From contig JAVXUO010001207.1 in assembly GCA_033065855.1 (NCBI GenBank), positions 95,590 to 159,589 of the forward strand: a stretch of DNA of 64,000 bases. The letters are read 5' to 3'. The notes beneath the pieces are model-generated. The model saw only the letters and a program-made list of their open reading frames with translations. It was not told where the DNA came from and did no database searches. Origin of the DNA: Escallonia rubra. Taxonomy: Eukaryota > Streptophyta > Magnoliopsida > Escalloniales > Escalloniaceae. Below, one piece after another: positions 2,364 to 42,886 of the stretch (its first letter is position 1; each line of letters opens with the position of its first letter). The position numbers and the translations under genes were made by a program.

Positions 2364-3323
2364 TAGACCTAGCAAAAAAAGAACCGAACCCGCGGGTCGA
2401 TCTGTACTCGGCCAAAAAACCTGGGTTCGGTAGATATTTTGCAGACCTGTTGAAAACAGACCCGTACCCAAATCGAACCGTATTTTTTGGGTAAGTCCGG
2501 GTCGGGTACGGGTTACCCGAACTTTTAGTATATAAGTTCTAGGGTTTTCTGATTTTTCCTTCACTCGGTCATTTTTCTCTCCTTCCAGCCGATCTGCGTC
2601 GCTGCTCCTCTCTCTCTTTCCCCCTCCCGAGATCGATCTACCTCGCAACGTTGCTCTCTGTCTCGCCTGTCAGATCCATCGACGGCAGAGACACGACACC
2701 ACATCAACTCGATGGCCAACTACTGCACATCAAGCGACGGCGTCCATCGTCCCTCTCTCGCTCTGCCGCCAGATCTGCCATAGCTCTGCCGCCAGATCTG
2801 CCATAGCTCTGCCTTCGATCAGATCCACCACGGCTTCGTGGCCACCATCTCCGTCGCCATCGCCAGATCTGCTTGTTTTATTAGTGTTAAAAATCTTTGT
2901 ATGTATTTAAGTATTTTGTAGTGTTATTTTCTTTCAGATCTGCTTGTCTTTTAATTTGTGTTGTGAGATAATTTATATCTAGATTTGCTTGTTCCTATTG
3001 TATATTTGTGTTTGGAGACTTGAGATGATGGGGTTGGTCTGGTTGGATTTGAGAATTGGATTTGAGATGAATCGTCAAGTGTTAATTGTAGAAATGAAAT
3101 TAGAAAGTGATAGTTGTATATTGTAATAATAATAAAATAGAAGGAAAAAACAGGCCAAATGTTTATTAATAAAAAAATAAAAAATTAATAATTTACTCGA
3201 GGGTAATACTTGCTCCGTCGGTAGGGTACAGATTCCAAAAATCCTTACCCGAGAAAAACCGGGTAAAAATTATCCGAACCGATTTTATCCGTACTCGGCC
3301 GGGTTACCCGTTTGCGAAGTCTA
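2364..3323 (+). mobile_element. Non-autonomous hAT element inserted in TK-A exon 6
   Basis: The terminal inverted repeats begin TAGACCTAGCAAA on the left and TAGACTTCGCAAA (reverse complement) on the right, with CCGGGT-rich subterminal DNA, as in plant hAT elements. The flanking 8-mers GTGACGAT (2356-2363) and GTGACGGG (3324-3331) agree at six of eight bases, an aged target-site duplication. The 960-bp body codes for no transposase. It carries a TATA-like tatataag, a telo-box-like ctagggtttt and a long CT-rich tract (about 2530-2900), which resemble the promoter and 5' leader of a plant housekeeping gene, plus a doubled unit containing gccgccagatctgcc. It splits the last exon of TK-A. Confidence 0.75.
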
Positions 3324-4804
3324 GTGACGGGTCACTAAGCATGTGAACGACTGCAGCCATGGACGGCCTGTCAGCTGCACGTAGTTGAACACATAGCAAC
3401 CCGATACCGATGCATCCCATGATCTCTTGAATTGAACTCGTATTAGCCTTCATGATCGGATCTACTAGATTCAAACACGTTCCTTTCTGCCAACATTTCC
3501 AAGCCTGTAAGATTCATCATTGTTCGATTTAATGTTTAAGAATTAGCTTTCGTGAGGTTACATTTAGGATACATAATTATCAAAAATCTTGTGTGCACTT
3601 ACATGCTCTAGAGAAAAACCTGCATTCTCTCCGATATGAAAAAAGGCACGAGCGCCATGGCCACTTATAATTTCGATAACTAACACACCGAAACTACAGA
3701 CATCGGACTTCATGGAATAATGCCCATGCACGAGAGACTCAGGTGCTAGATATCCACTGCAATGGTAGAAAGTGTTAGAAACTAAGGCACTTGTATCAGG
3801 CGTCTCGCTAATTGCTCCCTATATTCAGGAAACCAAGTTCGATTCTTTGACCACAACCTTTTTATTAACATAACAGTCGTGTTGGCTTGATTATACAGAC
3901 CACACATACTTGTTACAAGAGGAATTTTTATGGTTGGAAACATATAGTCAATCAAAATAAACACATACTTACCATTCCCTCTCAGTACGTGTAACAAAAC
4001 GTTGGGCTTCGCGGCACTCTGCCAGACCAAACTCTGAAATTTTTGGATTCATCTCAATGTCTAACAGAACATTGTCAGCTTTTAGGTTGTGGTGCATAAT
4101 TGGCCCTCGATAACCTTCACGAAGATAAAGAAGTCCCCGAGCAACACCTTCTATTATCTTCCGGCGCTTAGGCCAATCTAGATGTTGACGCGTCACCGGA
4201 TCTAAAGATACAGCCAAGCATACGGAGCACACACAAATTACAAACTATCGAGAAACAGAGACTCTCTTCATGAGTTTCAACTGTATGCCGTATAGCTAGT
4301 TAATGTATCATACATGTGCGTGTGCAGAAAAGCAGGAGAGTTTTTTTTACCAAGCAGGTAGTCGGCAACACTTCGATTCACCGAGAACTCATAGATGAGC
4401 AGCGGCACTTTGTCTGCTTTGATGCAGAAACCAAGGAGCCTAACCAAATTTGGGTGCTGAAGCTCTGCCAATAACTCGATCTCAGATAAACGTTCCCATA
4501 CATCTCGTCCATTCTTTATAGACAGACACTTCACTGCTATTTCTTGTCCATTTGGAAGAATGCCCTACATATACAGTGAAAGCAATCTTTAACAGGTCTA
4601 CTCTCAATTCTCCAGGAATGGAGAGTCATTTATGAAGAATGGCAGTGTTTTAGGGAGAATCATGGCTTTTTACCTTGTAAGTAGATCCATATTCATCAGA
4701 TCCAAGAATGCGAGTGCGAGAGAATTTATTTGTCGCTACCCTAATAGCTTTATAGCTTAACTGCAAGTTATTAGGGGTGCTATATTCACCGGAAAAAGGG
4801 CCAC
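3304..4804 (-). CDS. TK-A exons 2-6: CRK-type second kinase, predicted pseudokinase
   Basis: Exons of 131, 214, 229, 154 and 201 nt cover a nearly whole CRK-type kinase. The glycine loop is GSDEYG (second glycine replaced by Asp). The lysine is kept (AVKCLS), HRD is HHN, DFG is EFG, and the APE motif is LAPES. The end of exon 4 differs from the other copies (AECREAQRF) but stays in phase. The hAT at 2364-3323 cuts exon 6 after MLSD. Translation runs seven more residues, partly into the transposon end, and stops at 3304, so the kinase fold is almost complete but the usual tail is missing. A scrap of the original tail survives at 2334-2355. An active kinase is unlikely; a scaffold or regulatory role is inference. 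Confidence 0.75.
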
Positions 4805-7394
4805 CTGCAATGGACTCGAAAAAAAGGACCCAGAAATACATGAGATCCGTAAACACGAACAATTTTGCTTGATACCGCAGTTGAGATTTCCGAGCTCAAG
4901 AAAAGGACAAGAGTCCCCAGAGCAAAATGATTCAAGTGGTTATTATTAAAAAAATAAAACTTGATTTACTTTATTTGCCAATAGAGTGGTGTACTTGTGA
5001 CATGTTATGGCCATTTGTCATGCATTAATGGTGCGTAAATGTTAGAGGTGCATATGCTACAAATGCATAAGCATTAACCAGTGTGTTGTGGGTGGGGGTG
5101 TTATTACAAGTTTAGCAGTTGCATTAGTGCAACAATATAATAAAGCCATCTATTCTAGTCACCTAGGAAGGCGTAAAAATGATGTAAGAACGGTGCAAGT
5201 GTAAGAGATAGAGAGACGAAGAGCGAAGAAGGGCAAGGCCTTTCTCCATTCCTCCCATGAAGGAATAGCGACCTATTGGTTCCATATTAGTGTGATGTAA
5301 ACATTCAAGAACTCTTATGCAAAAATTCCAGAGTTGAGGTCTTCTTTTGGAATGTCCGAGAAAAGAAGGTAAATATCAAAATCTAAGCTACCAAATCATT
5401 TTATACTTTCATATTTACCATAAACTATAGTATCAAGCCACCACGTACCACCATTATTCTACTCCATCAGGCAAAAGGTAACCTTGAAAAATGTAAAGTT
5501 TGAGAACCTGTGTTTGTAAGTTTGAGTCGGATGAATGAGTAAGAGATCAGATGGTTACCATATGTTTGGGTAAATTTGGCGTGCGTGAATGAGCAAGACA
5601 GACTGACAGAGCACAAGGGAGGTTTCTATATTAATAGTAACAGACATTACTTTGATGCCAAAGGAAGGACTGCGTCAAGTTCATCATGTAGCTTATTTCT
5701 CCCTTTCAGCAAGTCCCTACTGCAGTTGTGGTGGGATTATTTCTTTCATTGCCATTACGTTGTTTTATCTTTTACCGGAAGAGATAAACAAAACACAAAG
5801 CGCAATAGACATATGGTTTCAGTTTACCTGAGTTGACCGACGCGCTGCCTAAAAGAAACCATTGGAACCTCTTCCAAAATGGCAATCTAGGTGGCCAAGT
5901 ACGAGACTGCCTGCTGCTTGCATCACCTAGCCGTATATCATCATAAATATGCTTAGTGTGACGGCCACCACCACCAGTTTTGATAGAAGAATCTACATTC
6001 CCCTCCCCTTCAACAGAAAATCCCTCATCAGCCAACTTCTCGCGTCCTAAATCACCCTCTATTGGCTGGACATTATGGCCATCATTACTTGCAGTGATTA
6101 CCTCATGTTCCACAGAGGAACATCCATCGTCTTGGTTGTCATTCTCCTCACTAGAATTTGAACTCTCCTCCTCGACCATAAGAGAATATGTTCCCTCTTG
6201 CAATGCCAATGCATACTCAAGCCTCACCACTACTTCGGCCATTGTAGGACGTTTCCTAGGAAGGTTATGCAGACATTGTTCTGCAATTTGTACAAACACC
6301 GTTAGACAGTCTGACAATATTTTCCCCTGCAAAGAAGGATCTATAATCTGATTAATTTTTCCTTCCTTGATGCAGTGCTTGGCCCATTCAGCTAAACCCC
6401 ACTGCTCCTCATCATCGAGTCTTGTATCCACAGCCGGCCTCCCACACAACACTTCGAACAATACCACCCCAAAGGAATACACATCAGATTTCCTAGTCAG
6501 TTGACCGGTCAAGAGATAATCGGGATCCAAACAACCAAATGTACCTTTGACATGGGTGCTGACGTGGGTGCATGACTGATTTGCCGGGCCTACTTTGGAC
6601 AACCCAAAGTCGGAAATCTTAGCTGCCCAATCTTCGTCCAACAAAATGTTTGAGCTCTTCACATCACGATGTATGACTCTATCCTTGACTCCTGTACCAG
6701 TGTGAAGGTAGTCCAATCCATGCGCTGCTCCAATGCATATTTTAAGGCGTTGCACCCAGGATAAGGGAGCATGACTGGATTTATCAATTTTGTGCAGATG
6801 ATCAGCCAGGGTTCCACGGGGCATATATTTGTAAACAAGGATCATCTCGTGGCATTCGTCACAGTAACCGATAAGAGGGACAAGGTGGCTATGTCGGAAC
6901 CTTGAAAGCAATTCAATCTCAGCCCAAAACTCAGGGGCTCCTTGGTGTGACCCTGGTTTCAACCGCTTAATCGCAACGATACTCGCCCCACTATCTATGA
7001 TCCCTTTGTAGACCTTCCCATACCCACCCCGCCCAATGACTGAAGCATCATCGAAGTTGTTTGTTGCCAACTGGAGCTCACCAAAAGAAAAACGACGGCA
7101 GAGTTGATGTTCTGAAGAGGGCAATGGCAACGGATAGTTTTGTTTTTCTTTGTCATCTAACTTTGATTCCTGAAGTTCCCTCAGGTAGTAAACAATGACA
7201 TTCAACACTACGATTAGAATTATCGCACCATTTGCAATTGGGTTCCCAAAGTCAAAAGCTAACCCAAGTTTTTGTAGCTTCGGAGCTGAAGGTGGATTGC
7301 CATCATAGAGTGAGTCATCAACGGCGGAATAAGGTGCAGGATAACTTCCGGCGACGGCAAACAGTAAAAGATTAAGAAAGAAGAAGTCGAGCAT
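3304..7394 (-). CDS. TK-A: membrane tandem kinase (FERONIA-like K1 + CRK-like K2)
   Basis: Six-exon model: 5828-7394, 4674-4804, 4351-4564, 3973-4201, 3603-3756 and 3304-3504, giving 831 codons plus stop with all junctions in phase. Exon 1 encodes a signal peptide (about residues 1-16), 40 outer residues containing [12 protein letters not shown], a membrane helix near 57-72, and a CrRLK1L-type Ser/Thr kinase: GRGGYGKV loop near 123, AIKRL lysine near 143, HRD near 244, DFG near 262. All catalytic residues are present; the APE-type motif reads LDPDY. An acidic linker of about 120 residues leads to K2. There is no malectin-like domain, so ligand binding as in FERONIA is not implied. If intron 1 is kept, a K1-only protein ends at the stop at 5772. 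The protein is predicted at the plasma membrane; role unknown, signalling or immunity inferred. Confidence 0.8.
4805..5827 (-). other. TK-A intron 1
   Basis: The intron begins GTAAAC after ...AACTCAG and ends CCATTGCAG. It holds a roughly 330-bp block (about 4930-5270, including the ttggccattagtcatgcattaatgg-like stretch) that is also in TK-D and TK-F but not in TK-B or TK-C. No separate promoter or start for K2 is evident in it. Confidence 0.65.
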
Positions 7395-8869: not shown

Positions 8870-9116
8870 AATTTGGTATTTGATGCCTCGTGTACTGAAA
8901 CAGCGAGCAGGCATACGTTTGGATCGACCAGACTCCTTCAGTTGCTGGAAAATGCGTCCCATGTGGGGGAATCTATTCGCCTGTCAGCTGCGTCTTTTTG
9001 AACATACGGCATCCCAATGTGGATGCATTTAACGATGTCCACGATTGGACTTGTACCAGCCTTCAATTTAGGATCTACCAGAGGTACAAATGACGCATCC
9101 ATCCAACATTTTCAAG
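8870..9116 (-). pseudogene. Relic A: decayed CRK-type last exon
   Basis: On the minus strand this aligns with relic E (45352-45558), a CRK kinase last exon, but the frame is lost by several small changes. It lies 5' of TK-A as its sister relics do for TK-B to TK-E. Confidence 0.55.
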
Positions 9117-9154
9117 CCTAAACATTGACCATGTTCTACTTACGTTTAAGTACT

Positions 9155-9450
9155 TATATGAAGGCTCTTCCTACATCGTCGGCACCACCGAAGCCCCACC
9201 AGCGCCGGTCGCAACCCCCAGCGGAGAACGCAACCCCGAGCAGAGAAGAGAGAGAGCGGGAGGTTCCGTCCGTCTGTGTCATTAGAGAAGGAGCGATCCG
9301 TGGTAGGGGAGGTTCTGGGTGGCGGCAGATGGAGTTTGGCAGCTGTGGTAGCGGTTGTGTGTTCTCTCAAATTCTGTAGAGTAAAGAAGTGCTGTGAGGA
9401 GCAGAGTTGGGGGCCGCGTTTTTCTGGGAAGAGAGAAATGAAGCAGTTAT
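9155..9450. repeat. GC-rich leader-like segment, copy 1 of 3
   Basis: This is a roughly 300-bp block with the phrases cggcaccaccgaagcccc and ggtggcggcagatggag, followed by purine-rich gagagag tracts. It recurs at about 31370-31660 and 51230-51540. On the minus strand it begins with CT-rich DNA, like the 5' leader of a plant gene. It always lies 5' of a relic, so it may be the former leader of the relic genes. Frames on both strands stay open by composition, and I do not call a protein. Confidence 0.5.
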
Positions 9451-9904
9451 GCTGAAATTTTAATAAATATTGTGTTGATTTCCGTGATATTATTCCTATT
9501 GTAAATTGTAAAAATTCATTAAAGCCGCTTTTAGCGACAATGTTGAGCTCTATTTCCGTGAAGCTCAAATAATTTTTTTTCTCTTCTTTATTGCATATTC
9601 CCCCATTTTTTCTCCTTACACATTTACCATTAGTTTCCCGTGACCACCAAATAAATTTAGTTATTGTGTGTAATAAATGTCTCGATGTCGCACGTGAGTT
9701 ATCTATGACATGATCAACTCTTTGTTTCAGGTTATAACAAAATTTGACATTGCAAACATCAAAACACCTTTATACTAGTAAATATTAGATTTAACAAGCC
9801 ATGATGAGATTAATGTAAATTGTTTCTAAATTAACCTTTATTTAATGATATTTAGGTAGAACATGACTGATGTAACAAAGACTCACTCAGTTAAACTACA
9901 TTTT

Positions 9905-10506
9905 TAGGGGTGAGTACGGTTCGGTTTGAAGGTCAAGGTGCAAACCGAAAAGTTACACTTTAGTTTGAAAAATTATAAATCGAAACAAACCAAACAAAAT
10001 CGGTTTGGATGGTTCGGCTTGGTTGGTTTATAGGGTTCAGTTTAGTCGGTTTGGATCAGTTTGTCTCACTTAAAGACGTCGTTCCTTTGCACACTACTAT
10101 TAGACCTAACAATAATTAAAATTTGAAGTCATATTTTTTCAAAATTGCATATAATCTTGTTACATTCAATATATAATTGCCCACTAATGTATGAGAAACA
10201 ATGAGTAATTATAGAAGAAATTAGTCACCAAACTTTTATGTTATAATTACACTCATTATATTCGTTTCTTTCAACTTTCAAGATTTGTTTATTTAGATTT
10301 TCTTAGTACCATATGCGAAAATTATCAAATGAATGTTACTAAAAATATATTAACACATTATAGATTGGTTCTATTCAGTTTGAAATCGGTTTCAAAATTG
10401 TGAACCGTAACCAAGGTCGGTTCATAAATGTAAAACCGAACGGTTAAGATCTTTAAATGGTTCAGATTGAATTTGTTTGGTTTAGTCGGTTTTAAACTCA
10501 CACCTA
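9905..10506. mobile_element. hAT-like non-autonomous element
   Basis: The ends TAGGGGTGAGTACGGTTCGG and, reversed, TAGGTGTGAGTTTAAAACCG form imperfect terminal inverted repeats with GGTTCGGTTT-rich subterminal DNA, typical of plant hAT MITEs. The interior is AT-rich and non-coding. Comparison with the unfilled flanks near 24360-24385 and 39605-39630 shows it interrupts a conserved spacer. No clean 8-bp target duplication can be defined. Confidence 0.55.
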
Positions 10507-11321
10507 CTTAATTATAAGAAAACTAGCTAATAGACCCGTGCAAATGCACGGGTAGATGTTATTTGGTCGGTTTGAGATATAATTTGCTTCTCATTAATTA
10601 TATATTATAATATAGTTAACAATGCTTTAAATCAAAATAATAACAAATATAATGACTTTCGCTGCATCGATGCATAATCATAATAATCGAGATTACTCAT
10701 GAATATAGATTTCATGAATCAAATAAGCATTACTTAATATTATTAGAATTATATTGACAAAAACTGTGTAAAATACTGAAAATGTATCTCATTTTGATAC
10801 ATCACTATGCTAATAGATTATATCAATGTATCTAAAACTACTATAAAAGTGAAAATGTATTTAGTTTTCACTAACATTCTTATTTTCTAATTCTTTATAT
10901 CCTCTTTTAATTATTACGTAACATGTATTGTTAGAAATAATATTTTACTACGTGATTTGAGTAAAAGAAATGTCAAATGGAGAAGAACTTTTACTCATGC
11001 CTAGCTTATCGTACTTACACATATACAAAAAAAAAAAAACTTTGTGTCTTATAAAATTTTTATTGTCTTTGAATTTAGATTTGTAAAATTTAATGGGGAC
11101 ATTTGCATATAGTTTGTAATCGTTTAATTTTTTTATATACTCAAAATTATTAATAATAGTAATATTAAAACATACAAAATAAAACATTCAAAAAGTAAAG
11201 CATGCAATAAATAATCAATTATTGCACATCAAATTATAATTTTACTCCATTTTAAGGTAATGTTAGAACTAATTTTAGTTTTGCACCAAAAACAAAGTGA
11301 GCTTAAACATTCAAGAAATCA

Positions 11322-11324
<3 letters not shown>

Positions 11325-11380
<56 letters not shown>
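11325..11380. repeat. (AT)n microsatellite
   Basis: About 28 uninterrupted AT units inside the outer Helitron. The IYIYIY frame read through it is an artefact. Confidence 0.9.
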
Positions 11381-11384
<4 letters not shown>

Positions 11385-13635
11385 TACTTATTAACCGTTG
11401 GATGAACTTTTTATCAATATTCTATCTAAGTAAATGTAGGCATTTTCTTCTTTTTCATTTTACAGTTCACATCATTGATCAACATTCCCATTTTATGGAT
11501 GATTCTGATGTAGTTGATGACTATTATTAAATTGAATACAATTGAGAGTCATTTGTATTAAAACTCATAAAAGAAGGTAAAAAGGACACAAATCGTTATT
11601 TAGTAAATATTTGGGTAGACTTAACTAACTTACTATAACATGCCGTGAAACTTTGTAATAAAAAATAAAGCACGTTGAGCTATTTCACTTATTTTCAAAT
11701 AAACACCCTATAAAAATAGATTATATAGCATTATGTATTGGCAATATCTGTGTGTAATTGTTTTCTTCAAGGTCATGTTTGATGATTTTTTGACCATTCG
11801 CTTTGATGTATTTTTTAAGACTTTCTAAGACAATAAATTTAAACATATGCGTACAATGTAGTACTAATGATTATTTTAATTCATTATAAAATTTTTAGAG
11901 TGTTTTACCAAAGTTTTGCATATGATTGAGGTTAAACAGTTATAAAATGAAGACTATTCTTACCCATGTAACACTTTGCAATATTGAGGTCAAACAATTA
12001 AAAAAGAAGAAATCTTTTATCTTATGAAGCATTAATATTAAAATTTCACAAATGATTTTCATAATTTACCTTGGTAATATTTTGTGTTGTTGTTTTAATT
12101 TTTTTTTTAGATGTTAAAAGTGAAATTTAAGGTCTAATATATACATTTTATAGTTATTAGTTAACTAAATTTATCAAAAAAGTGTCATAATAGTTAATAC
12201 AAATTTTGCAAAAAAATTGAGATAGATAATCATATAATGATGATTATGCTTATTGTCAAATAGACTGTAAATAGTTGATTGAGTTTATATCAAATAATAT
12301 GCTTAAATGATTATAAGTTTAGAAATATGAGCTATATTGGTTTAGGTTTTTATTTCACATACTATTGGAAACATTATTTTGAATTTAAAATTTATTTAAG
12401 CTTTAGTAATCAAATTAAATCCTAATACCTTAATTAGTTGATGAGATGAACTTTTAGAATGTGAGGTTACTTAGTTAAAAATTAGAGTAGCTTGCTATTT
12501 TTATATCTTAAAGTACTTTTGAAAATTTAGTCATATCAGGTATGATTTTTTTTTTCCTGCGTCTATTAGAGAATGTGACTTATAAAAGAGTTTGAGGTTA
12601 TAGAATTAAAACTAAGTTTTGTATGTTCCGTATAGAGAAAAGATAGTTAATGTTTCTCATGTATACATTTGTCAGATTTGATTTTGTTATATTTAAGTAC
12701 TTTTAAGGTGTTATTAGTCAAAATTCAAGGCCTAATAAGAATATAGATTGATTAGATAGAGATTTAAAATATGTAAAATTGATATTCCAGTTTTATAGTT
12801 AAGGTTTACAAAACTTCGGCCAAATATACCTACAAAATGTTTAGTAAAAACCATTGTAAAAACTTAGGAAGTAGTATTGTAAATATTTTTCATATTAAAA
12901 GTCTATTTAAGTGCTACTAATCAAATTAAATTCTAGTAAGTTAACCAATTAATAATGCGAAGTGCTAAATTATTGTCAAATGGTACATATTGTTGTAGTT
13001 GCAATACCTAATTTTTAAGTTGATATTTGATGTACTGTAAAAAAGACACAGCCTTGTATATTAAAAGTTTTACATGTAAATGAAGTTAAAATAATTATGA
13101 ATTAATTGATTATGCCTACATTTGTATGATAGATTAGAATGAAACTTTGTAAAATTACAAAAAGAATTAGTAAGTAGGGTATGATTTTCGCACTTTATAT
13201 TTTTGAGATTTTATATTGTTATTTCAAAGTACTTTTGAGGTTTTAATAAGCAAAATTAAGGCTTAATATATGAGTATATTAATTAGGTAGAGTTTTAGAA
13301 GGTGTAAAATTAGTTTCTTAATTTTATAAAGTTTACAAATATAGGGTAAAGTAGACCTACGAATTTTTTAATAATAAATTATAAGAAAGAGTTAAATATA
13401 GTAGGAAAGGAAAAGAATACCAAAACAAATAGGATTCTTGATTATATACATCCAATTCAAAAGAGTTGGACTCTAAATAAAGAGACCAACTAAGTTAGGG
13501 GACTACCACATGCAAAGTTGAAGCTTACGTGGCAGAAGGAGAATGCTCTTAAAAAGTCTTACGTGGCGTAAATATAGAGCTCTAAAAATCCTACGTATTG
13601 CGATTCTAAGCGAAGGCTTCAGCTTTTTATATATA

Positions 13636-16600
13636 CTAGCTAATGTGCCCGTGCAAATGCACGGGATGCGATTTAATTTGATTTTATTGCTAATAACATA
13701 TTTAATATAGCCTATTAATTTCAAAGTTCTAAAAAACAAAGAAAGATAGTTATTTTCAAAGACAAATGAGGTAATTCAACTATGCATCTTGAACGGAATA
13801 GTTGACATTACTCAAGGTACGTAAGTTCCTCCAATACATTAATCCACGTCCTACTGAATTATAGTAAAACTAAGAGAACATTTAAGCCAAACTTTGATTT
13901 TAGATCATTAGCGAAAAAAAAGTGTAGATTTAATTTTACTTTTTCTCAATCTTTTTATGTAAAATATTAGCCAATCCACATATATCCTATAGTCACGCCT
14001 TATATATTCTTTCATGAGAAGTACAGTATTACATATGCTTTTAGATTGGTTCATTCCATTAAGAAGTTCAAACTTCAAAATTTATGTTAAGAAAAAAGAT
14101 GTATGACAATTTTCACAAACATGCTGATTTTGTAGTCCTTTTATCCTCACTAATTGTTCTGTGTACCACAATTTAACAAAGAATGCTTGCATGTTTTATA
14201 TAACGATAGGCCTATTTGCCTCTTTTAGTGACAAAAGGGTGTAGGCTCAGCGAAAAATAGTGTAGATTTAATTTCACTTTTTCTCTTTCTTTTTGTGTAA
14301 AATATTGACAAATCCATGAATAGTCCTACAGTCATATCGTATATATTCTTCTATGAGAAGTACAACATTACATGTGCTTTTAGATTCGATAAGAAATTGT
14401 TCAAACCTCAAAGCGGCCACTTGGCTAAAGAGAACTTTTTGATAATTGTACACGGGTATCAAAACATGATCGGCGGAAAAGCTCCTCTAGTGCAAACATT
14501 AAGAGTTACTATTCCTAGGACAGATTTTACAAACGTGCATGTTTTGTCAAAGAACTAAACGTAGAATCGTCATTTGTTAATATGAATTACCAGTTGTCTG
14601 GTTAGAATTCTCAACATTATTTGTCCCATTATCTTATACTAATACACCAACACCTTACTGCTACCATTTTCATTAAATAGTCTCCATTATTGTCACCAAC
14701 CATTATAGTTATTACCATCTTTACAATTCCCGCCATTACTATCACTACTACCGCCACTTCCGTTGTATAATACTATTGCAGTCAACCGCCACCATTACCA
14801 AAAATATAATATCATTCACATGTGCAAGATCAATTGCACCTTTACTACCAATGGCAGGTCTACCTCCATATTTTGCTAGCGTTAAAAGTTGTATGGTTTG
14901 TAATTGAGTTAAAAGTTAGATCTCATTTATTTTACATTTCTTTTTATTCTCCAAGACTTATACTAATCCGAACTACTTAGTCCCCAATCAAATTCAATTA
15001 CCTCTTGTAATTTAATTTCAAAAAGAATTGGTTCTAAATCAAGTGTAGCATCTTAAACTTAAAATATTAGTTTATGAGACCACAAACTCACAAAAAAGCT
15101 TAGGAAAGATTTTCTCCAAAGTTACTTTTAGCAATCTCAATAGAGAAAATGGTACTCTATTTCAAATCTCTTGGAGATTCTAAGTCTTCTTTCATTATTC
15201 TAGAATGAAATATATGACAGGCGCTGTAATTAAATATATAACAATAGATCAATAGTTAATGACATGATGACTAACCAAGTACAATAGATAAATAAATAGT
15301 GAGATTCAAAAGCATTGATTGTGTTTGGAGCATAGTTTACATTATGTTCTTCAACAAATTAGCTAGAACATAATTGACATTATGGAGCGAAGGTAGAATG
15401 TTTTATCAAGGTGTCAATAGGTTTACTTTTCAAAGTAGAATAAGGGCTTAAGCCCTTATTCTACTTTCTCATTTCTTTCAACCAATGGACTTTATCATTT
15501 TCTTTCCTTTTAAGCAATCCAGATTGGTGTGTTTTGAGAACCAACATCCGAATTAATCCACTAAAATTAATCCATGAAAGCGGACAGTAAACCAAAATAT
15601 AAATAGTGAAGTGTGATTGTTTTATTGCAATAAATGGAGAGCAGGGAATTAAAATATAAGAGGTTCTGAGGCATTTTCTTTTGCCAATATTTCTTGCATA
15701 TATGCACATTGAAGCAGGCATATACTTTCAACAAATAAATTCTATTACCATGTCTCTTTCTAATAACAGGTGAGTGTCTTTTGTCAACCTAACAAAATCT
15801 TTTTAAAACTGATAATAAGAGGACTGAATGCTAGACTAAAACTTTTGTTATTACCATCTAGTTTGTTTTTGAAGCTAGACACTTGATGCTTGCGCCCTAT
15901 ATTTTACCACCTAAATGTTCTCTTTGTAGTTCCATGCTAGTTAGCTTAATATCTAATTGCTAATGAATTAATTGTATGTCCTGTCACAGAATGCGACAAA
16001 AACAAACTAATATCAACCAACTCTATAAGAAATTTGACATCATATTCTCCTCAGGTTGCCTTAACAACACCAAAAACCATGAAAAGCATCTTGTGTCCCT
16101 TGACCATTATTTGCTCATACAGATTACCATAGTATCATACTCGGTAAAACTCTAGGCTGCTAATTATTAACCAAAGATGTTTTCTACATTTGCTTAGGCT
16201 CTCGCCAACAGAAATGTTAGATTTGCTCGGTCTTTATTGCCTAATTGTAGTGTGCATACATTAAGGCGTGATTATTTCAAAGATTTTTCATTTTCTTATG
16301 TTTGCTTGCTACTAAAGATTTCATATAACTGACAAAAAAAAGATTCGTGATAGTATCGATAGGAATAATTATATTGAAAATCTCATAATTAGATTGTAAA
16401 TTGCAGAAATAATAGGCAGAGTATATTAGAATGCATATTCTATGTTCCGTAAAGAAAAAAGATTGTTAATGTTTCTCATGTATACATTTGTCAGATTTGA
16501 TTTTGTTATATTTAAGTACTTTTAAGGCGTTATTAGTCAAATTCAAGGCCTAATAAGAATATATAGATTGATTAGATAGAGATTTAAAATATGTAAAATT

Positions 16601-17507: not shown

Positions 17508-17852
17508 TCTCTCTCATGAACAGCATCATTGAGCCGCTTCTAAGTTTATTGGCCTCTCAGTTTGATAATGCCAGAGACTTAAACATATATGACTTAACAA
17601 TATATGTCTCTCACCCATACACAAGTGCTTACATTCGCGTGATGCTATACATTTCTATTCTAGCTTTGGGTAAAAATTCTACCGATCATATATCAACAAG
17701 AAGCATGTAGTATATCGCACACCCAACACCGTGACTTTAGAAAACGAGCGTCACAAAGCCAAACCTCTTGTATGACCAAGAGCGGCAATAGAATAAACGG
17801 CTTTAATTAACTGAGATACTTCGATAGCAAAAGGCAAAGCTGAAATGGCACC
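17508..17852. other. 3' flank of TK-B
   Basis: This conserved unit flank resumes after the Helitrons (atgtctctctcatgaacagc) and leads to the TK-B stop codon. It probably includes 3' untranslated sequence. The same flank precedes the stops of TK-C, TK-D and TK-E. Confidence 0.6.
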
Positions 17853-23814: not shown

Positions 23815-24088
23815 TCCTAATGTAATTCAGTATTTGAAGCCTCATCTGCTGAAATAACGCATACATTTGGATCGTGGAATCTAAACGTACGTCCAGACTC
23901 CCTCAGTATCTGGAAAATGCGTCCCATGAAGTGGAATCTACGAACTGGAGCGGCTATGCGTTGAATTTCGAGGCTTTGAAGGCATGTGGACGCACCTAAC
24001 AATGTCACCCATTGGACTTGTACCAGCCTTCATTTTAGGATCTACCAGAGGTAAGAATGACGCACCCATCCAACATTTCCAAGCCTAA
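23815..24088 (-). pseudogene. Relic B: decayed CRK-type last exon
   Basis: Related to the last exon of relic E, with broken frames and an internal gap. The preceding exon and FER-like scrap seen in relics C and E are missing. Confidence 0.5.
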
Positions 24089-24764: not shown

Positions 24765-28752
<3,988 letters not shown>

Positions 28753-30265: not shown

Positions 30266-31060
30266 TCATCTACTGAAACAGCGAGCAGGCATACATTTGG
30301 ATTGACCAGGCTCCCTCAGTTGCTGGAAAATGCGTCCCATGCAGGGGAATCTATGGATTGGAGCTACTATGCATAGAATTTCGAGGCTTTGAAGGCATTG
30401 GAAGAGTGCTAAAGGAGCTGAGCATGAGAACAACTGAAGAGATGGTTGGCCTGTCAGCTGCATCTTCTTGAACACGCGGCATCCCAATGTGGATGCATCT
30501 AACAATGTCACCCATTGGACTTGTACCAGCCTTCAGTTTAGCATATACCAGAGGTAAAAATGACGCATACGTCCAACATTTCCAAGCCTAAAGAGTTCAC
30601 CACGTTCTACTTACATTTAAGTATATATAATGCACAATGTGAATCGGTACTTACATAGCTTAGAAGGTCTTTCTCACTCTTCTGAAAGCAGTAATTCTTC
30701 TGTCCACTAATGATTTCGAGAACCAACACACCAAAACTAAAGACATCTGACTTCTCAGAAAACTGCCCATGAGTTGCGCACTCCGGTGCCATATATCCAC
30801 CGCAAGTGTTAGGTGTTACTGTGTTAGATAGTGCTACACACCCAAAAACAATAAAATTCAACAGGTCCCAAGGTCAAGCACCATACGGTCTGAACCAAGT
30901 ACCATATATCTTTTCCTGGAGATTTCTTGGTCTGAACCAAGTCCCATATATCTTGTCCATAGAGTCCCCATCCCAAGGCAGTCATGGCAGTAACCGATCA
31001 GAGAACACGAGGTGGCTATTTAGAAGCTACGAAAGCAGCTCAATCTCAGTCAGAAAGTGT
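30266..31060 (-). pseudogene. Relic C: decayed tandem-kinase-like gene
   Basis: From right to left: a FER-like scrap (about 30960-31060) reading TEIELLS and then LIGYC-like residues in shifting frames; a nearly intact CRK exon 5 (30655-30799: [28 protein letters not shown]); and a decayed exon 6 (about 30266-30590). The acceptor of exon 5 is GG instead of AG. The order FER-like then CRK-like is that of the TK genes, so this looks like an older, dead member. The same arrangement, better kept in its CRK part, is at 45352-45997. Confidence 0.6.
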
Positions 31061-31189
31061 AACATGAAAAGTGACATGCAAGGAAAAGTGGGTACAACCA
31101 TGGTGGGCTGTAGGGGTCATGTACACTGCCACCACTGTAACAGCATCCAATGCCACACCCCAAAATCAAACATCACTGTACAATAAAAT

Positions 31190-33238: not shown

Positions 33239-34742
33239 TCAGTCCTCAGACACTACCGGGGACTCAGCTCCTGCTGAATCAGACTCCGATTCTGGATTGA
33301 TGCTACCACGCATAAAGTATGCAGGCTTTGAAGGCACTGGAAGAGTGACAGAGAGGCTACTAAGCATGGCGACGACTGCAGCCATGGACGGCCTGTCAGC
33401 AGCAATTTCTTGAACACCTAGCAACCCAATGTGGATGCATCTCACAATGTCTCGCATTGAACTCGTATCAACCTTCATGATTGGATCTACTAGATTTAAA
33501 CATGTTTCTTTGCGCCAACATTTCCAAGCCTGTAAGTTCATCGTCGTTCCGTTAATGTCTAAGAATTAGCTTTCGTCATGTTACATTTAAGATAAGAAAT
33601 CATTAAAAGTTGTATGTCTGTACTTACGTCGCTTAGAAGGTCCTCTCCCTTCTCCCTGCTTTGACGCAAGTTACTAGTCTTTCGGCCACTTATAATTTCG
33701 AGAACCAACACACTGAAACTAAAGACATCGGACTTCATGGTATATTGCCCATACATTGCATACTCCGGTGCCACATATCCACTGCAATGGAAGCGTGTGT
33801 TAAAGGCACTTGTATTGGCTTGATAATGCAGACAGCACGTACTCGTTACAAGATGAATTGTTATGGTTGGAAATATATACTCGATCAAAATAAACACATA
33901 CTTACATTGGCCGATGAACTATTGTTGTAATCCCTTGGGCTTCGTTCAACATGCGTGACCTTCCCAGCCCAAAAAATGCAATTTTTGGATTCATCTCAGC
34001 ATCTAACAGAACATTGCCAGCGTTTATGTAGCGGTGAACTGTTCGCTCTTGAGAATCTTCATGAAGGTAAAGAAGTCCCCGAGCAACACCTCCTATTATC
34101 TTCCAGCGCTTATGCCAATCCAGATATGGACTCTTGACCCGATCTACAGATACAGCCAAGCATACGGAGCATACACAAATTACTAACTATGGAGAAACAG
34201 CAACTGTCTTCATGAGTTTCAACTGTATGCCTTCTAGCTATTAGGTGTATCAGACAGGATCATATGCAGAAAAGCAGGAGAATTTTTTTTACCAGACAGG
34301 AATTGGGCAACACTCGCATTCGGCATGAACTCATAGATGAGAAATTCTTCGGCTGCTTCTATGCAGAAACCAAGGAACCTAACCAAATTTTCGTGCTGAA
34401 GCTTTGCCGCTATGAATACGTTATTTTTAAAATCTCGTTCCTCTTGTCTGGCATACTCGGACAGCCTTTTCACTGCTATTTCTTGTCCATTTGGAAGAAT
34501 GCCCTAAAGATACAGTAAAAGCAATCCTAAACAGGTTGTCTCTCAACTCTCCAGGAATGGAGAGTATTTATGAAGAAGGACAGTGTTTTGGGCAGAACCA
34601 TGGCATTTTACCTTGTATATACGTCCAGATTCATCATCTCCAAGCTTGCGAGAGTATGAGAAGTTAAGTGTCGCTAAACTAATAGTACGAAAACTGTATC
34701 GCAAGGACTTCAGGGTGCTATCTTCATCGAGAAAAGAACCAT
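33239..34742 (-). CDS. TK-D exons 2-6: CRK-type second kinase, predicted pseudokinase
   Basis: Exons of 131, 211, 238, 154 and 291 nt. Glycine loop GDDESG, AVKRLS lysine kept, αC region FKNNV (usual glutamate replaced by Asn), HRY for HRD, FFG for DFG, VAPEY and DVFSFS near the APE region. Of all copies this K2 has lost the most catalytic residues, yet all frames and splice sites are whole. The tail is the standard acidic end, ESPVVSED. Confidence 0.78.
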
Positions 34743-37130
34743 CTGCAATGGGCTCGAAAAACAGGACCCAGAAATACATGAGATCCGTAAACACGAATAA
34801 TTTTGCAATAGAAACAGATTGTACAAATATTCTGAGTTCAAAATGGTTTGCGGCAAAACTTCATCCTACAAGCTATCTTATAATACCACAGTTGAGATTT
34901 CCGAGCTCAAGAAAAGGATAAGAGTCCCCAGAGCAAAATGATTCAAGTAGTTATTGTTCAAATAAAAATTTGATTTACTTTATTTGCCAATAGAGTGGTG
35001 TATTGGTGACATGTTATGGCCATTAGTCATGCATTAATGGTGTGTTATTAATGTTAGAGGTGCCTTAGTACAACTATATTGTGTGGAGAGTGGGGTGAAT
35101 GGTGTTGTTATTACAAGTTTAGCAGTTGCATTAGTAAAACTATAAAGCCATGTAATCTAGTCATCTAGAAAGGTGTAAAAATGATGCAAGCATGGTGCAA
35201 GTGTAAGGGGTAGAGAGACGAAGAGCGAAGAAGTGCAAGGCCTTACTCTATTCCTCCTGTGAAGGAATAGCGGCCTATTGGTTCCATATAGTGTGATGTA
35301 AACATTCAAGAACTCTTTATGCAACAAATTCCAAGAGTTGAGGTCTTCTTTTGGAATGTCCGAGAAAAGAGGGTAAATATCCAAACCAAAGCTACCAAAT
35401 CATTTTATACTTCCATATTTACCATAAGCTATAGTATCAAGCCACCACCATCACTATTTTACTCCATCAGGCAAAAGGTAAACTTGAAAAATGTAAAAGT
35501 TTGAGAACCTGTGTTTGTAAGTCTGAGTTGGATGAATGAGTAAGAGATCAGATGGTTACCATATGTTTGGGTGAATTTTGGCGTGTGAGATTGAGCAAGA
35601 CAGAGCACAAGGAAGGTTTCTATTAGTAGTGACGGACATTACTTTTATGGCAAAGGAAGGACTGCATCAAGTTCATCAGAGTTGATGAAATAGACTCTAC
35701 TGCAGTTGTGGTGGGATTATTTCTCTCATTGCCATTACGGTTTTTCTCTTTTACTGGAAGAGATAAGCAAAACCGAAAGCGCAATAAACAGATAGTTTCA
35801 GTTTACCAGAGTTCACCGAAGCACTGTCTGTACACAACGATCGGAACCTCTTCCAACATGGCAATCTAGGTGACCTAGTACGAGACTGCATGCTACTGGC
35901 ATCACCTAGCCGTGTATCATCAGAAACATGCTTGGCGTGACGGCCACCATCACCGGTTTTCATAGAAGAATGTACAGTCCCCTCCCCTTCAACAGAAAAT
36001 CCCTCACCAACCAACTTCTTGCGTCCTATATCACTCTCAGTTGGCTGGACATTAGGGTCATCACTTCTTGCTGTTATTACCTCATGTTCCACAGAGGAAT
36101 ATGCATCGTCTTGGTTGTCATAAGCCTCACTAAAACTTAAACTCTCCTCCTCGACCATAAGAGAATAAGTTCTCTCTTGCAATGCCAATGCATACTCAAG
36201 CCTCACTACAACTTCAGCCATTGTAGGACGTTTCTTGGGACGACTATGCAGACATTGTTCTGCAATTTGTACAAACACCATTAAACAGTCTGACAATATT
36301 TTTCCCTGCAAAGAGATATCTATAATCTGATCTACTTTTCCTCCCTTGACGCAGTGCTTGGCCCATCCAGCTAGACCCCACTGCTCCTCATCATCGAGTC
36401 TTATATCCACAGCCGGCCTCCCGCATAGCACTTCGAACAATACCACCCCAAAGGAATACACATCAGATTTCCTAGTCAGTTGACCAGTCAAGTTATAATT
36501 GGGATCCAAATAGCCGAATGTACCTTTGACATGGGTGCTGACGTGGGTGCATGACTGATTTGCCGGGCCTACTTTGGACATCCCAAAGTCGGAAATCTTA
36601 GCTTCCCAGTCTTCGTCCAACAAAATGTTTGAGCTCTTCACATCACGATGGATGATTCTATCCTTGACTCCCGTACCAGTGTGAAGGTAGTCCAATCCAC
36701 GCGCTGCTCCGATGCATATTTTAAGGCGTTGCACCCAAAATAAGGGAGCGTGACTGGATTTATCAATTTTGTGCAGATGATCAGCGAGGGTTCCACGGGG
36801 CATATATTTGTAAACAAGGATCATCTCGTGGCATTCGTCACAGTAACCGATAAGAGGGACAAGGTGGCTATGTCGAAACCTTGGAAGCAACTCGACCTCA
36901 GTCCGAAACTCAGGGCCTCCTTGGTGTGACCCGGAGTTCAACCGCTTAATCGCAACAATACTTGCCCCGTTATCTATGGCCCCTTTGTAGACCTTCCCAA
37001 ATCCACCCCGCCCAATGATTGAAGCATCATCGAAGTTGTTTGTTGCCAACTGGAGCTCACCAAACGAAAAATGACGGCAAAGTTGATGTTCTGAAGAGGG
37101 CAATGCCGACGATATATGGTCGTGGAACAT
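33239..37130 (-). CDS. TK-D: tandem kinase lacking signal peptide and membrane helix
   Basis: Six exons: 35807-37130, 34612-34742, 34293-34503, 33906-34143, 33628-33781 and 33239-33529, giving 782 codons plus stop. The usual start survives (MFHDHIS) but is followed at once by [18 protein letters not shown]. An in-frame deletion of about 90 codons has removed the signal peptide, ectodomain and membrane helix and left K1 whole. K1 motifs: GRGGFGKV near residue 42, IVAIKRL, HRD, DFG, LDPNY. The product should be cytosolic, like the known soluble plant tandem kinases. Kept intron 1 would end the protein at 35751. The deletion also removes the membrane anchor from any K1-only form. Confidence 0.8.
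34743..35806 (-). other. TK-D intron 1 (long form)
   Basis: 1,064 nt, GTAAAC to CATTGCAG, with the roughly 330-bp block shared with TK-A and TK-F. Confidence 0.65.
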
Positions 37131-39372: not shown

Positions 39373-39600
39373 CCTCATCTACTGAAACAGCGAGCATGCA
39401 TACATTTGGATCGACCAGGCTCCCTCAGTTGCTGGAAAATGCGTCCCATGCAGGGGAATCTATGGATTGGAGCTGCTATGCGTTGAATTTCGTGGCTTTG
39501 AAGGCATTGGAAGAGTGCTAAACGAGCTAAGCATGAGAACAACTGAAGAGATGGTTGGCCTGTCAGCTGCCTCTTCTTGAACACACAGCATCGCAATGAA
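39373..39600 (-). pseudogene. Relic D: truncated CRK-type last exon
   Basis: Homologous to the relic C and E last exons, but cut at 39600, where it joins the TK-E 3' flank directly. This junction looks like the scar of an unequal exchange that removed the rest of the relic and spacer. Confidence 0.55.
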
Positions 39601-39990
39601 CAGCTACTCCATTTTTAGGCTACTTAAAAATGTCTCTCTCACGAACAGCATAATTTGAGTAATTTGTAAGATTATTGGCCTCTCGATTTGATAATGCCAC
39701 ATACTTGAACTATATGCATATGACAATAAGGATGATGTCCACCCCATGCACAAGTGCTTACAACCGTGTAATGCTACACATTTTTCTATTATATTTTTCG
39801 TTCTAGGTAAAAATCTACCAACCATATGAACAAAAAGCATATAGTATTCCACACTCCCAACAGCATGACTTTAGGCAAGGAGCAGCGTAAAGCCAAGCCT
39901 CCTTGTATGACCGAGAGCGGCAAAATAGAATAAACGGCTTTAAATAAGAGACACTACCGGAAACTCGCTCCCTGCTGAATCAGACTCCAA
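39601..39990. other. 3' flank of TK-E
   Basis: Conserved unit flank, nearly the same as positions 1-195 and related to 17508-17852. No gene. Confidence 0.6.
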
Positions 39991-41476
39991 TTATATGCTA
40001 CCATGCTTGAAGCATGGAGGCTCAAAAGGCGTTGGAAGAGTGATAGAGGGGCTACTAAGCATGGGAACGACTGCAGCCATGGACGGCCTGTCAACTGCAA
40101 GTTCTTGAACACATAGCAACCCAATATGGACGCATCTCACGATGTCTTCCATTGAACTTGTGTCAGCCTTCAAGATAGGATCTACTAGATTTAAACATGT
40201 TCCTTTCTGCCAACATTTCCAAGCCTGAAAAATTCATCATTGTTCCACTTAATGTTTACGAATTAGTTTTCGGGATGTTACATTTAAGATAAGAAATCAT
40301 CAAAAATCTTATGTCCGTACTTACATAGCTTAGAAGATCCTCTGCATTCTTACTGCTTTGAGGAAAGGTAGCACTGCTCTGGCCACTTATAATTTCGAGA
40401 ACTAACACACCGAAACTAAAGACATCGGACTTTGTGGAATGCTGCCCATGGGAGATACACTCTGGTGCTAGATATCCACTGCAATGGTAGAGAGTGTTAG
40501 AAACTAAGGCACTTATATCAGTCGTCTCGCTAATTTCTCCGCATATTCAGGAAACCAAGTTCGATTCTTTAACATGACAGTCGTGCTGGCTTGATTATAC
40601 AGACAGCATGTACTTGTTACAAGAGGAACTAGTATGGTTGGAAACATATAGTCAATCAAAATAAACACATACTTACAATGTCCCACAAATATTTGATGCA
40701 GTGTCTTGGGTTTTGTCCGACTTGAGTGACCTTGCCAGACCAAAACCTGAAATTTTTGGATTCATCTCAATGTCTAACAGAACATTGTCAGCGTTTAGGT
40801 TGCCGTGGATAATTTGCAATCGAGAATCTACATGAAGATGAAGAAGTCCCCGAGCAACACCTTCTATTATCTTCCAGCGCTTATGCCAATCTAGATGTGG
40901 ACGCTCCACCGGATCTAAAGATACAGCCAAGCATACGGAGCACACACAAATTACAAACTATCGAGAAACAGAGACTGTCTTCATGAGTTTCAACTGTATG
41001 CCTTATAGCTAGTTAATGTATCGTACATGTGCATGTGCAGAAAAGCAGGAGAGTATTTTTTACCAAACAGGTGGTAGGCAACACTTGCATTCGGCAAGAA
41101 CTCTTGGATGAGCAGCACTTCGTATGCTTTGATGCAGAAACCAAGGAGCCTAACCAAATTTGGGTGCCGAAGGTTTGCACAAATCTGAATCTCACGTTTA
41201 AGTTCCTGTACAGCTCGTTCATTATCCATATACATTCTCTTCACTGCTATTTCTTGTCCATTTGGGAGAACGCCCTACATATACAATAAAAGCAATCTTA
41301 AACAGGTCAGTCTCTCAACTCTCCAGGAATGGAGAGTCATTTATGAAGAATGACAGTGTTTTTACCTTGTAAAAATATCCAAATGCATCATATCCAGTAA
41401 TGCAAGTGTCGGAGAAGTTACCAGTCGCTTCACGAATAGCACGAAAGCTATATGCACCGAGAAAAGGACCATCTGC
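39991..41476 (-). CDS. TK-E second kinase part, predicted pseudokinase
   Basis: The K2 start lacks a few residues (GPFLGAYSF versus [17 protein letters not shown] in TK-D). The loop is GYDAFG, the lysine is kept (AVKRMY), HRD is HGN (the arginine is lost as well), DFG is GFG, and the APE region is LAPEC with SDVFSFG. The stop comes about 19 codons earlier than in TK-B (tail FKHGSI). Exons of 211, 238 and 154 nt match the array standard. TK-Z is a near copy of this half. Confidence 0.78.
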
Positions 41477-42886
41477 AATGGGCTCGAAAAAAAGGAACCT
41501 CTTCCAATATGGCAATCTAGGTGGCCTAGTACGAGACTGCCTGCTGCTTGCATCACCTAGCCGTGTATCATCATAAACATGCTTGGCGTGACGGCCACCA
41601 TCACCAGATTTGATAGAAGAATCTGCAGTCCCCTCCCCTTCAACAGAATATGTTCTCTCTTGCAATGCCAATGCATACTCAAGCTTCGCCACTACTTCAG
41701 CCATTGTAGGACGTTTCTTGGGACGATTACACAGACATTGTTCTGCAATTTGTACAAACACCATTAAACAGTCTGACAATATTTTCCCCTGCAAAGAGGG
41801 ATCTATAATCTGACCCACTTTTCCTCCCTTGATGCAGTGCTTGGCCCATCTAGCTAGACCCCACTGCTCCTCATCATCGAGTCTTGTATCCACAGCCGGC
41901 CTCCCACACAGCACTTCGAACAATACCACCCCAAAGGCATACACATCAGATTTCCTAGTCAGTTGACCGGTCGAGTAATAATCGGGATCCAAATAGCCGA
42001 ATGTACCTCTGACATGGGTGCTGACGTGGGTGCATGACTGATTTGCCGGGCCTACTTTGGACATCCCAAAGTCGGAAATCTTAGCTGCCCAATCTTCGTC
42101 CAACAAAATGTTTGAGCTCTTCACATCACGATGTATGACTCTATCCTTGACTCCCGTACCAGTGTGAAGGTAGTCCAATCCACGCGCTGCTCCAATGCAT
42201 ATTTTAAGGCGTTGCACCCAGGATAAGGGAGCATGACTGGATTTATCAATTTTGTGCAGATGATTAGCCAGGGTTCCACGGGGCATATATATGTAAACAA
42301 GAATCATCTCGTGGCATTCGTCACAGTAACCGATTAGGGAGACAAGGTGGCTATGTCGAAACCTTGAGAGCAATTCGATCTCAGTCCGAAACTCAGGGGC
42401 TCCTTGGTGTGACCTGGAGTTCAACCGCTTAATCGCAACAATACTTGGCCCATTATCTATGAACCCTTTGTAGACCTTCCCAAATCCACCCCGCCCAATG
42501 ACTGAAGCATCATCGAAGTTGTTTGTTGCCAACTGGAGCTCACCAAAGGAAAAACGGCGGCAAAGTTGATGTTCTGAAGAAGGCAATGGCAACGAATAAT
42601 CTCGTTTTTCTTTGTCGTCTAAGTTTGATTCCTGAAGTTCCCTCAGGTAGTAAACAATGACATTCAACAGTGCGATTAGAATTATCGCACCATTTGCAAT
42701 CGGGTTCCCAAAGTCAAAAGCAAACCATAGTTTTCTTAGCTTCGGAGCTGAAGGTAAATGGCCATCATAGAGTGAGTCATCAACAGCGGAATAAGGTGGA
42801 GGAATATTACCGGCGAAGGTAAAAAGTGGAAGATGAAGAAAGAAGAAGTAGAGTATGATGAGAATAGATATATGGTAGTGGAACAT
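39991..42886 (-). CDS. TK-E: tandem kinase with intron 1 deleted, both kinases in one frame
   Basis: Five exons: 41366-42886, 41064-41274, 40677-40914, 40325-40478 and 39991-40224, giving 785 codons plus stop. The first exon reads from the signal peptide (MFHYHIS) through the FERONIA-like K1 ([26 protein letters not shown]) straight into the CRK-type K2: the protein passes from LPYWKRF to [16 protein letters not shown] without a stop. A deletion has fused exon 1 to the last bases of intron 1 (TTCGAGCCCATTGCAG, acceptor still readable near 41476), keeping the frame. The K1-K2 linker is also shorter: about 50 residues of the acidic part are missing. This copy shows directly that one reading frame spans both kinases. 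Confidence 0.82.

Follow-up and report, generated by a model that had tools for sequence, protein, structure and literature searches.

A predicted array of tandem kinase genes in Escallonia rubra pairing a FERONIA-like kinase with a diversifying CRK-like pseudokinase

Introduction

Among the closest described systems are the tandem kinase-pseudokinases of the WTK1/Yr15 and Rpg1 group, for which gene fusion is given in 40 of 92 cases, CRK-type (cysteine-rich receptor-like kinase; LRR_8B) kinases make up 49 of 184 domains, and a division of labor between a sensor pseudokinase and a signaling kinase has been proposed (PMC6170490; this and the other papers cited are drawn on in part, and statements about them refer to those parts). 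Multi-kinase proteins of the DLSV class occur in cotton, soybean, and wheat (PMC5955557), and contact with an effector as well as partners among the nucleotide-binding leucine-rich repeat receptors (NLRs) have been reported for some wheat tandem kinases (PMC12830362, PMC12839863). What the pseudokinase half does in plant tandem kinases is often argued by analogy, as a decoy or a bait. Here, we describe a 64,000-nucleotide stretch of DNA from Escallonia rubra (contig JAVXUO010001207.1, positions 95,590 to 159,589; hereafter the window) that carries repeated copies of a gene in which a FERONIA-like kinase exon (K1) is followed by the exons of a CRK-like kinase (K2). The two halves are very probably joined in one protein, and the half that changes fast among copies is K2, most copies of which have lost catalytic residues.

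Results

Organization of the array

The array lies on the minus strand and comprises five complete copies, A to E, together with copy F at the window end, of which only K2 is present, and a broken copy, Z, at the window start. The initial annotation of this DNA had proposed a multi-copy family with five complete gene models; rebuilt exon by exon, these models again came to 831, 873, 873, 782, and 785 codons with zero internal stops, and F and Z are two further copies that it had overlooked. Each K1 exon has a set of K2 exons 0-1064 bp downstream on the same strand (5/5), the frame is kept across every junction, and the introns of A-F are GT-AG in 28 of 28 cases. Exon 1 ends in phase 1 at the donor TCAG/GTAAAC in A, TCTG/GTAAAC in B and D, and TCTG/GTAAGC in C (the slash marks the exon end), and exon 2 begins directly after CATTGCAG in A, B, C, D, and F, both in agreement with what had been described. 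Intron 1 measures 765-1064 bp in A-D and is missing from E, where K1 continues into the first K2 exon within one open reading frame (ORF) at 41315-42886, so that K2, which has five exons in A-D and F, consists in E of a first exon fused to K1 and four more. Exon 4 of C uses an AG six bases upstream, with the frame kept, because the usual acceptor position reads GG.

The K2 ends of three copies are altered: that of A runs abruptly into unrelated sequence at ~3320 and below, with ~30 C-terminal residues lost, that of E has a stop 19 codons early, and in C the final codons are shifted by one extra base. The K2 exons of F span 63181-61583, and because the 819 bp preceding them match intron 1 of D (87.7% identity over 725 bp aligned), K1 of F is expected beyond base 64000. 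In Z (~1320-199), K2 is broken: exon 3 carries one stop, and exon 4 has lost its end together with the donor. Intron 2 of B (19224-19718) carries ~387 bp, including long runs of G and of A, for which the other five copies have no counterpart. The features are listed below; rows that name no other basis rest on the gene models.

5828-7394, minus strand, copy A exon 1: signal peptide, helix, FERONIA-like kinase K1, and C-terminal linker (open frame, Pfam kinase, donor TCAG/GTAAAC)
4805-5827, minus strand, copy A intron 1, 1023 bp, between K1 and K2 (GT..AG, phase 1)
4674-4804, minus strand, copy A K2 exon 2
4351-4564, minus strand, copy A K2 exon 3
3973-4201, minus strand, copy A K2 exon 4, with HHN and EFG (gene model, residues)
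3603-3756, minus strand, copy A K2 exon 5
3304-3504, minus strand, copy A K2 exon 6, 3' end running into unrelated sequence
20615-22211, minus strand, copy B exon 1: signal peptide, helix, and K1 (Pfam, phmmer, gene model)
19850-20614, minus strand, copy B intron 1, 765 bp
19719-19849, minus strand, copy B K2 exon 2
19013-19223, minus strand, copy B K2 exon 3
18627-18864, minus strand, copy B K2 exon 4, with HRN and GFG (gene model, residues)
18247-18400, minus strand, copy B K2 exon 5
17853-18143, minus strand, copy B K2 exon 6 to the stop
27156-28752, minus strand, copy C exon 1: signal peptide, helix, and K1 (Pfam, gene model)
26369-27155, minus strand, copy C intron 1, 787 bp
26238-26368, minus strand, copy C K2 exon 2
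25923-26133, minus strand, copy C K2 exon 3
25537-25780, minus strand, copy C K2 exon 4, with intact HRD and DFG; the acceptor lies 6 bp upstream of the position used in the other copies (gene model, residues)
25155-25308, minus strand, copy C K2 exon 5
24765-25049, minus strand, copy C K2 exon 6 to the stop
35807-37130, minus strand, copy D exon 1: K1 without signal peptide or helix, by in-frame loss (Pfam, gene model)
34743-35806, minus strand, copy D intron 1, 1064 bp
34612-34742, minus strand, copy D K2 exon 2
34293-34503, minus strand, copy D K2 exon 3
33906-34143, minus strand, copy D K2 exon 4, with HRY and FFG (gene model, residues)
33628-33781, minus strand, copy D K2 exon 5
33239-33529, minus strand, copy D K2 exon 6 to the stop
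41366-42886, minus strand, copy E exon 1: K1 and first K2 exon fused at the DNA level, no intron 1 (single ORF 41315-42886)
41064-41274, minus strand, copy E K2 exon equivalent to exon 3 of the others
40677-40914, minus strand, copy E K2 exon equivalent to exon 4, with HGN and GFG (gene model, residues)
40325-40478, minus strand, copy E K2 exon equivalent to exon 5
39991-40224, minus strand, copy E K2 exon equivalent to exon 6, with early stop
63182-64000, minus strand, copy F intron 1, part (87.7% identity to intron 1 of D, 725 aligned bp)
63051-63181, minus strand, copy F K2 exon 2
62731-62941, minus strand, copy F K2 exon 3
62344-62581, minus strand, copy F K2 exon 4, with HRA and EFG (gene model, residues)
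61974-62127, minus strand, copy F K2 exon 5
61583-61873, minus strand, copy F K2 exon 6 to the stop
199-1320, minus strand, copy Z, broken K2 fragment, an internal example of decay (stop in exon 3; exon 4 end and donor missing)

Selection on the two kinase halves

The kinase domain of K1 is under purifying selection and K2 is under diversifying selection. The pooled ratio of proportional nonsynonymous to synonymous difference (pN/pS) was 0.55 for K1 and 1.03 for K2, and within K1 it was 0.80 for the N-terminal part, 0.38 for the kinase domain, and 1.08 for the C-terminal extension. Under a single nonsynonymous to synonymous rate ratio (omega), K1 gave 0.67 and K2 1.32, the latter above 1 at p 0.008. 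In site models (M0/M1a/M2a) fitted with home-made code, not PAML, twice the log-likelihood difference (2dL) between M2a and M1a was 1.62 for K1, i.e. no gain, and 61.3 for K2. Because the frameshift in C and the lost end of A make the C-terminal columns unreliable, later K2 runs were limited to columns 1-310, for which 2dL was 60.15 and still significant on three other topologies; it also stayed significant without A (33.5), without A and E (15.0, p 0.0006), and without D (54.1), and none of 200 null simulations without positive selection reached the observed value (maximum 11.56). A tree-free pairwise test, setting nonsynonymous change in exons 3-5 against silent plus intron 3-4 change, counted 112/459 versus 30/482 for the pair A-E (ratio 3.97, p 1.3e-15), and an excess of up to 4-fold reached p < 0.02 in 9 of the 15 pairs.

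The fast K2 columns (naive posterior >0.9, 48/310) are distributed over the N-lobe (24/118), the catalytic loop to APE (16/57), and the part beyond (8/107), with none in aD-aE (0/28). The aspartates of HRD and DFG and the lysine of the catalytic loop are among these columns, whereas all six K2 share the AVK Lys, the catalytic-loop Asn, the APE Glu, and the aF Asp, and five of six have the aC Glu. Such a kept fold with a changed cleft would show the pattern expected of a binding surface in an arms race. Relaxed constraint alone would not raise rates beyond those of silent sites. It is likely that K2 has been selected for changing binding partners.

A number of points weigh against this reading. 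The linker of K1 likewise has a pN/pS of 1.08, the one-ratio omega of K2 becomes indistinguishable from 1 when A is left out (1.13) and is 0.99 without A and E, and K2 exon 6 alone gives no signal (2dL 3.03, p 0.22). All nine significant pairs include A or E, the six pairs among B, C, D, and F are without significant excess (ratios 0.93-1.28, p 0.06-0.7), and the 15 pairwise tests are mutually non-independent. The null fits used one start and 40 iterations per model versus two starts and up to 100 iterations for the observed M2a, and gene conversion, through mosaic copies, violates the assumption of a single tree, the site posteriors themselves being naive. Exchange of this kind is seen around exon 4, where over one 150-column stretch the identity of Z is 91.7% with A and 87.2% with E, against 75.2% between A and E; outside this stretch Z is nearest to E (up to 99.3%). 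We infer that segment exchange among copies may be a way of shuffling sensor surfaces.

The K2 frames are open in all six of A-F. Under neutral substitution, simulated by mutating the majority consensus with substitutions only, the chance of a stop-free K2 was 0.004-0.04 per copy, with a product of ~4e-11 if the copies, which are not fully independent of each other, are treated as such. It is very likely that K2 is translated, since neutral substitution predicts stops and Z shows that copies do break. These figures bear on the proposal that K2 is a decaying CRK remnant, duplicated along with K1, whose frames are open by chance. HRD/DFG loss in five of six K2, a pooled pN/pS near 1, the lack of an excess over silent sites among B, C, D, and F, the altered 3' ends of three copies, and the broken CRK fragments across the array would all fit such decay, but neutral change should have left stops at the simulated rate and would not give the 4-fold nonsynonymous excess between A and E or an omega above 1, the residues of the fold are invariant while surface and catalytic residues vary, and in Z the array holds a copy that is in fact broken. 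Decay is strongly contradicted and hardly credible as an explanation, and a pseudogene reading of K2 was rejected because its frames are open, omega exceeds 1, and nonsynonymous change between A and E outpaces the silent plus intron rate.

The junction between K1 and K2

The initial annotation had read K1 and K2 as one fused protein, K2 having no start of its own. Ahead of exon 2, the open stretch is 5 codons in B, 13 in C, and 23 in F and contains no in-frame ATG. Because the translated K2 of B, C, and F would have no local start in frame, K2 most likely forms one protein with K1; E joins the two halves in the DNA itself, and we consider a single fused K1-K2 product highly probable. The donor and phase at the junction were not used as support because they are weak alone (one ancestral event, ~1 in 3). 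The fusion claim is strengthened by the diversifying selection on open K2 frames, the missing local ATG in B, C, and F, and the intronless junction of E; the absence of a K2 start holds for B, C, and F but not for A and D, where an ATG lies in the open stretch before exon 2, and the reasoning then given was silent on the loss of HRD/DFG in five of the six K2 and on K2, not K1, being the fast half.

Against a single product stand the in-frame ATG just upstream of K2 exon 2 in A and D, the possibility of K1-only proteins, since unspliced K1 would end 18-23 codons further in A-D, and the presence within intron 1 of a TATA-like word (A, B, D, and F) and of AATAAA (A, C, D, and F). All of these would suit an arrangement of two transcription units, a one-exon K1 ending just past the donor and a K2 with promoter and start in intron 1, as would the ATG-started ORFs of 30-40 codons found in intron 1 of A (three), B (three), and C (one). 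The K1 tails, however, differ between copies, with B and C partly out of register; no in-frame ATG occurs in the open stretch that precedes K2 in B, C, and F; E is without intron 1; and ATG-started ORFs of at least 30 codons are lacking both from intron 1 of D and from as much of that intron as the window contains for F. Two separate units are judged quite unlikely. It is also conceivable, and compatible with a fused protein, that both products are made through alternative splicing or early polyadenylation, the short K1 form being a signaling partner or a brake. Four copies have read-through tails of K1, and AATAAA is present in the first intron of A, C, D, and F, both in agreement with this; Pm4 makes two isoforms through alternative splicing (PMC12830362). 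The tail, however, is not conserved between copies, and E would be unable to make the short form by read-through because it has no intron 1. A dual output is possible, if doubtful.

Identity of K1 and its membrane anchor

The FERONIA-like character first ascribed to K1 was borne out in a search of solved structures with copy B, the copy used, which best matches FERONIA chains (phmmer 1.1e-106, 357.6-360.8 bits). The next molecule was 2qkw, listed as "Protein kinase" (299.6 bits, 4e-88), which we take to be Pto, and a search of viral contigs returned no relatives of K1 of B. Pfam kinase models match all five K1 frames, and because Pfam (E 0.01) gives kinase domains alone in 5/5 frames, no malectin ectodomain was found in K1, whose kinase fold is evident from sequence. 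The catalytic residues are intact in all five (VAIK or LAIK, HRD, and DFG), and on these residues K1 is probably active.

An N-terminal membrane helix (residues ~53-81), preceded by ~40 outside residues, is present in A, B, C, and E. A second hydrophobic stretch, at the N-terminus, reaches the threshold in B and E alone; for A and C, the signal peptide was accordingly read by eye. The description of the family as membrane-anchored, then, applies to four of the five complete copies and fails for D, in which signal peptide and helix were lost in frame; the lack of a membrane helix in D counts against a receptor held at the membrane as a feature of every copy.

Identity of K2 and loss of catalytic residues

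Among solved chains, K2 of C, the copy searched, best matches BAK1 (phmmer 3.2e-64), and by this match, together with that of K1 of B to FERONIA, both halves are assigned to the RLK/Pelle type. The kinase exons are the last five of a seven-exon CRK gene, and the five K2 kinase exons would fit the last five of this common layout; from the layout, and from sequence motifs that we take to be CRK-type, K2 appears to be of the CRK type. Seven exons are found in 29 of 46 CRK genes of bean (PMC6356535). The DUF26 motif C-X8-C-X2-C had three matches in six frames over the whole window (57015, plus strand; 17755 and 9124, minus strand), none in or upstream of the K2 sets, the one at 17755 sitting ~100 bp past the stop of B.

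At the HRD and DFG positions, K2 reads HHN/EFG in A, HRN/GFG in B, HRD/DFG in C, HRY/FFG in D, HGN/GFG in E, and HRA/EFG in F, so that both motifs are kept only in C and are missing from the other five. In the glycine loop, all six copies have Asp in place of the second glycine, so that even K2 of C is perhaps impaired. Judged by residues, the arrangement is that of a kinase followed by a pseudokinase.

Neighboring sequence

Fragments of a second CRK-type kinase lie between or beside the copies on the minus strand, at 8980-9111, 23983-24084, 30354-30810, 39472-39603, and 45328-45886; they correspond to the last one or two exons, are 46-68% identical to K2 (tblastn), and probably descend from a CRK gene that the ancestral repeat unit contained. 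Directly upstream of E, 43266-43978 is a GC-rich simple-repeat block that is open in several frames. Between A and B, the GC content falls sharply to 25% over 10001-14000, with no open frame of 120 codons. A Copia-like retroelement at 46454-50429 (plus strand) has a 1065-codon open frame, its upstream part being split over other frames; its integrase and reverse-transcriptase motifs are presumably those of a Copia-like element.

Discussion

The explanation that we favor overall, with moderate confidence, is a tandem array of kinase-pseudokinase fusion genes in which K2 would act as a sensor or bait and K1 would signal. A CrRLK1L-type gene without a malectin ectodomain would sit upstream of a CRK-type kinase without ectodomain or membrane exons, and the donor at the 3' end of K1 would be spliced to the acceptor of the first K2 exon, the predicted joined transcript giving a single protein with, in order, a signal peptide, ~40 outside residues, one helix, the FERONIA-like K1, a fast-changing linker, and the CRK-like pseudokinase K2. 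With this topology, K2 would face the cytosol, where it could serve as an intracellular sensor or bait whose former cleft (glycine loop, catalytic loop, and activation segment) may bind pathogen effectors or imitate the CRK kinases that effectors attack. The cleft would vary among copies via mutation and gene conversion, whereas K1, the conserved signaling half, would be freed or activated once K2 is engaged, possibly through a partner NLR, for which reports on some wheat tandem kinases offer a precedent. That the binding partner of K2 is a pathogen effector is somewhat more probable than not. The full picture of membrane-held immune receptors, in which a FERONIA-class kinase is coupled to a CRK pseudokinase sensor whose dead active site has become a hypervariable recognition surface diversified by mutation and gene conversion, is tentative and falls just short of an even chance.

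The fusion may be real and yet serve self/non-self or pollen-pistil recognition, symbiosis, or cell-wall sensing instead of effector recognition. Diversifying selection is also seen in reproductive proteins, and the window holds nothing pointing to a pathogen. CrRLK1L kinases such as FERONIA work in fertilization and cell-wall sensing (PMC11646777). On the other hand, the fast half would be cytosolic by the predicted topology, at the site of effector action, and the cereal tandem kinases cloned so far are resistance proteins (PMC6170490, PMC11006675), and such another role is rather unlikely. For the sensor or bait reading, the decoy idea becomes directly testable because six paralogous K2 behind a conserved K1 vary at cleft hot spots that can be named by residue, and the array supplies natural variants: D without the helix, E without intron 1, and C with intact HRD/DFG.

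The 2025 atlas of Reveguk reportedly lists tandem kinases in the thousands, many of which have a membrane helix. The statement in the initial annotation that no described family pairs a short-ectodomain CrRLK1L-type kinase with a CRK-type kinase behind one membrane helix is too strong, since CrRLK1L, CRK, and membrane-helix tandem kinases are each in print; the exact pairing was nonetheless not found among the full-text literature matches listed, as far as these were covered, and the 2025 atlas may list it. Selection on the pseudokinase cleft of a tandem kinase was likewise not found among the listed matches, few of which were aimed at selection.

Like WTK1/Yr15 and Rpg1, the proteins predicted here would carry two RLK-type domains in tandem, as kinase and pseudokinase halves (PMC6170490). 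Unlike that family, for which the parts of the source drawn on report no membrane domains and the main text holds no mention of CrRLK1L (possibly included within its "RK" class), they come from a local array and show diversifying selection on K2 (PMC6170490). The CrRLK1L dual kinases of sunflower and lettuce in the OrDeb2 interval similarly have no malectin ectodomain, are clustered, and keep an active site only in the first half, but both of their halves are CrRLK1L-like and they have no helix, whereas K2 here belongs to another family and a helix is present in four of five copies (PMC8866362). Pm36/WTK7-TM, which is needed for mildew resistance, is also a membrane-helix tandem kinase with CRK-type domains; it differs in that both halves are CRK-type and likely pseudokinases, in its occurrence in only few wild emmer, and in its C-terminal helix (PMC11006675), since here A, B, C, and E have theirs near the N-terminus (~53-81) and D has none. 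Pm57 and other DLSV-DLSV proteins share a DLSV (CRK-class) kinase domain within a tandem kinase, but both halves are DLSV by duplication, and the ratios of nonsynonymous to synonymous substitution (Ka/Ks) given for their comparison are 0.14 and 0.19 (PMC11153570), contrary to what K2 shows here. For Sr62, WTK3, and RWT4, the tandem kinase meets the effector and an NLR responds, a logic that we propose could apply here too, although these proteins belong to other kinase families than K1 and K2 (PMC12830362, PMC12839863). With the FERONIA/CrRLK1L receptors themselves, the genes share the kinase type of K1 and the N-terminal helix; unlike these receptors, they have no malectin domain that was found and carry a second kinase. 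On these comparisons, the array would belong to a known kind, the tandem kinases, from which it differs in the mixed pairing of a CrRLK1L with a CRK-like domain, bringing a FERONIA-type kinase into a mixed-family tandem kinase beyond the CrRLK1L duplicates of sunflower and lettuce.

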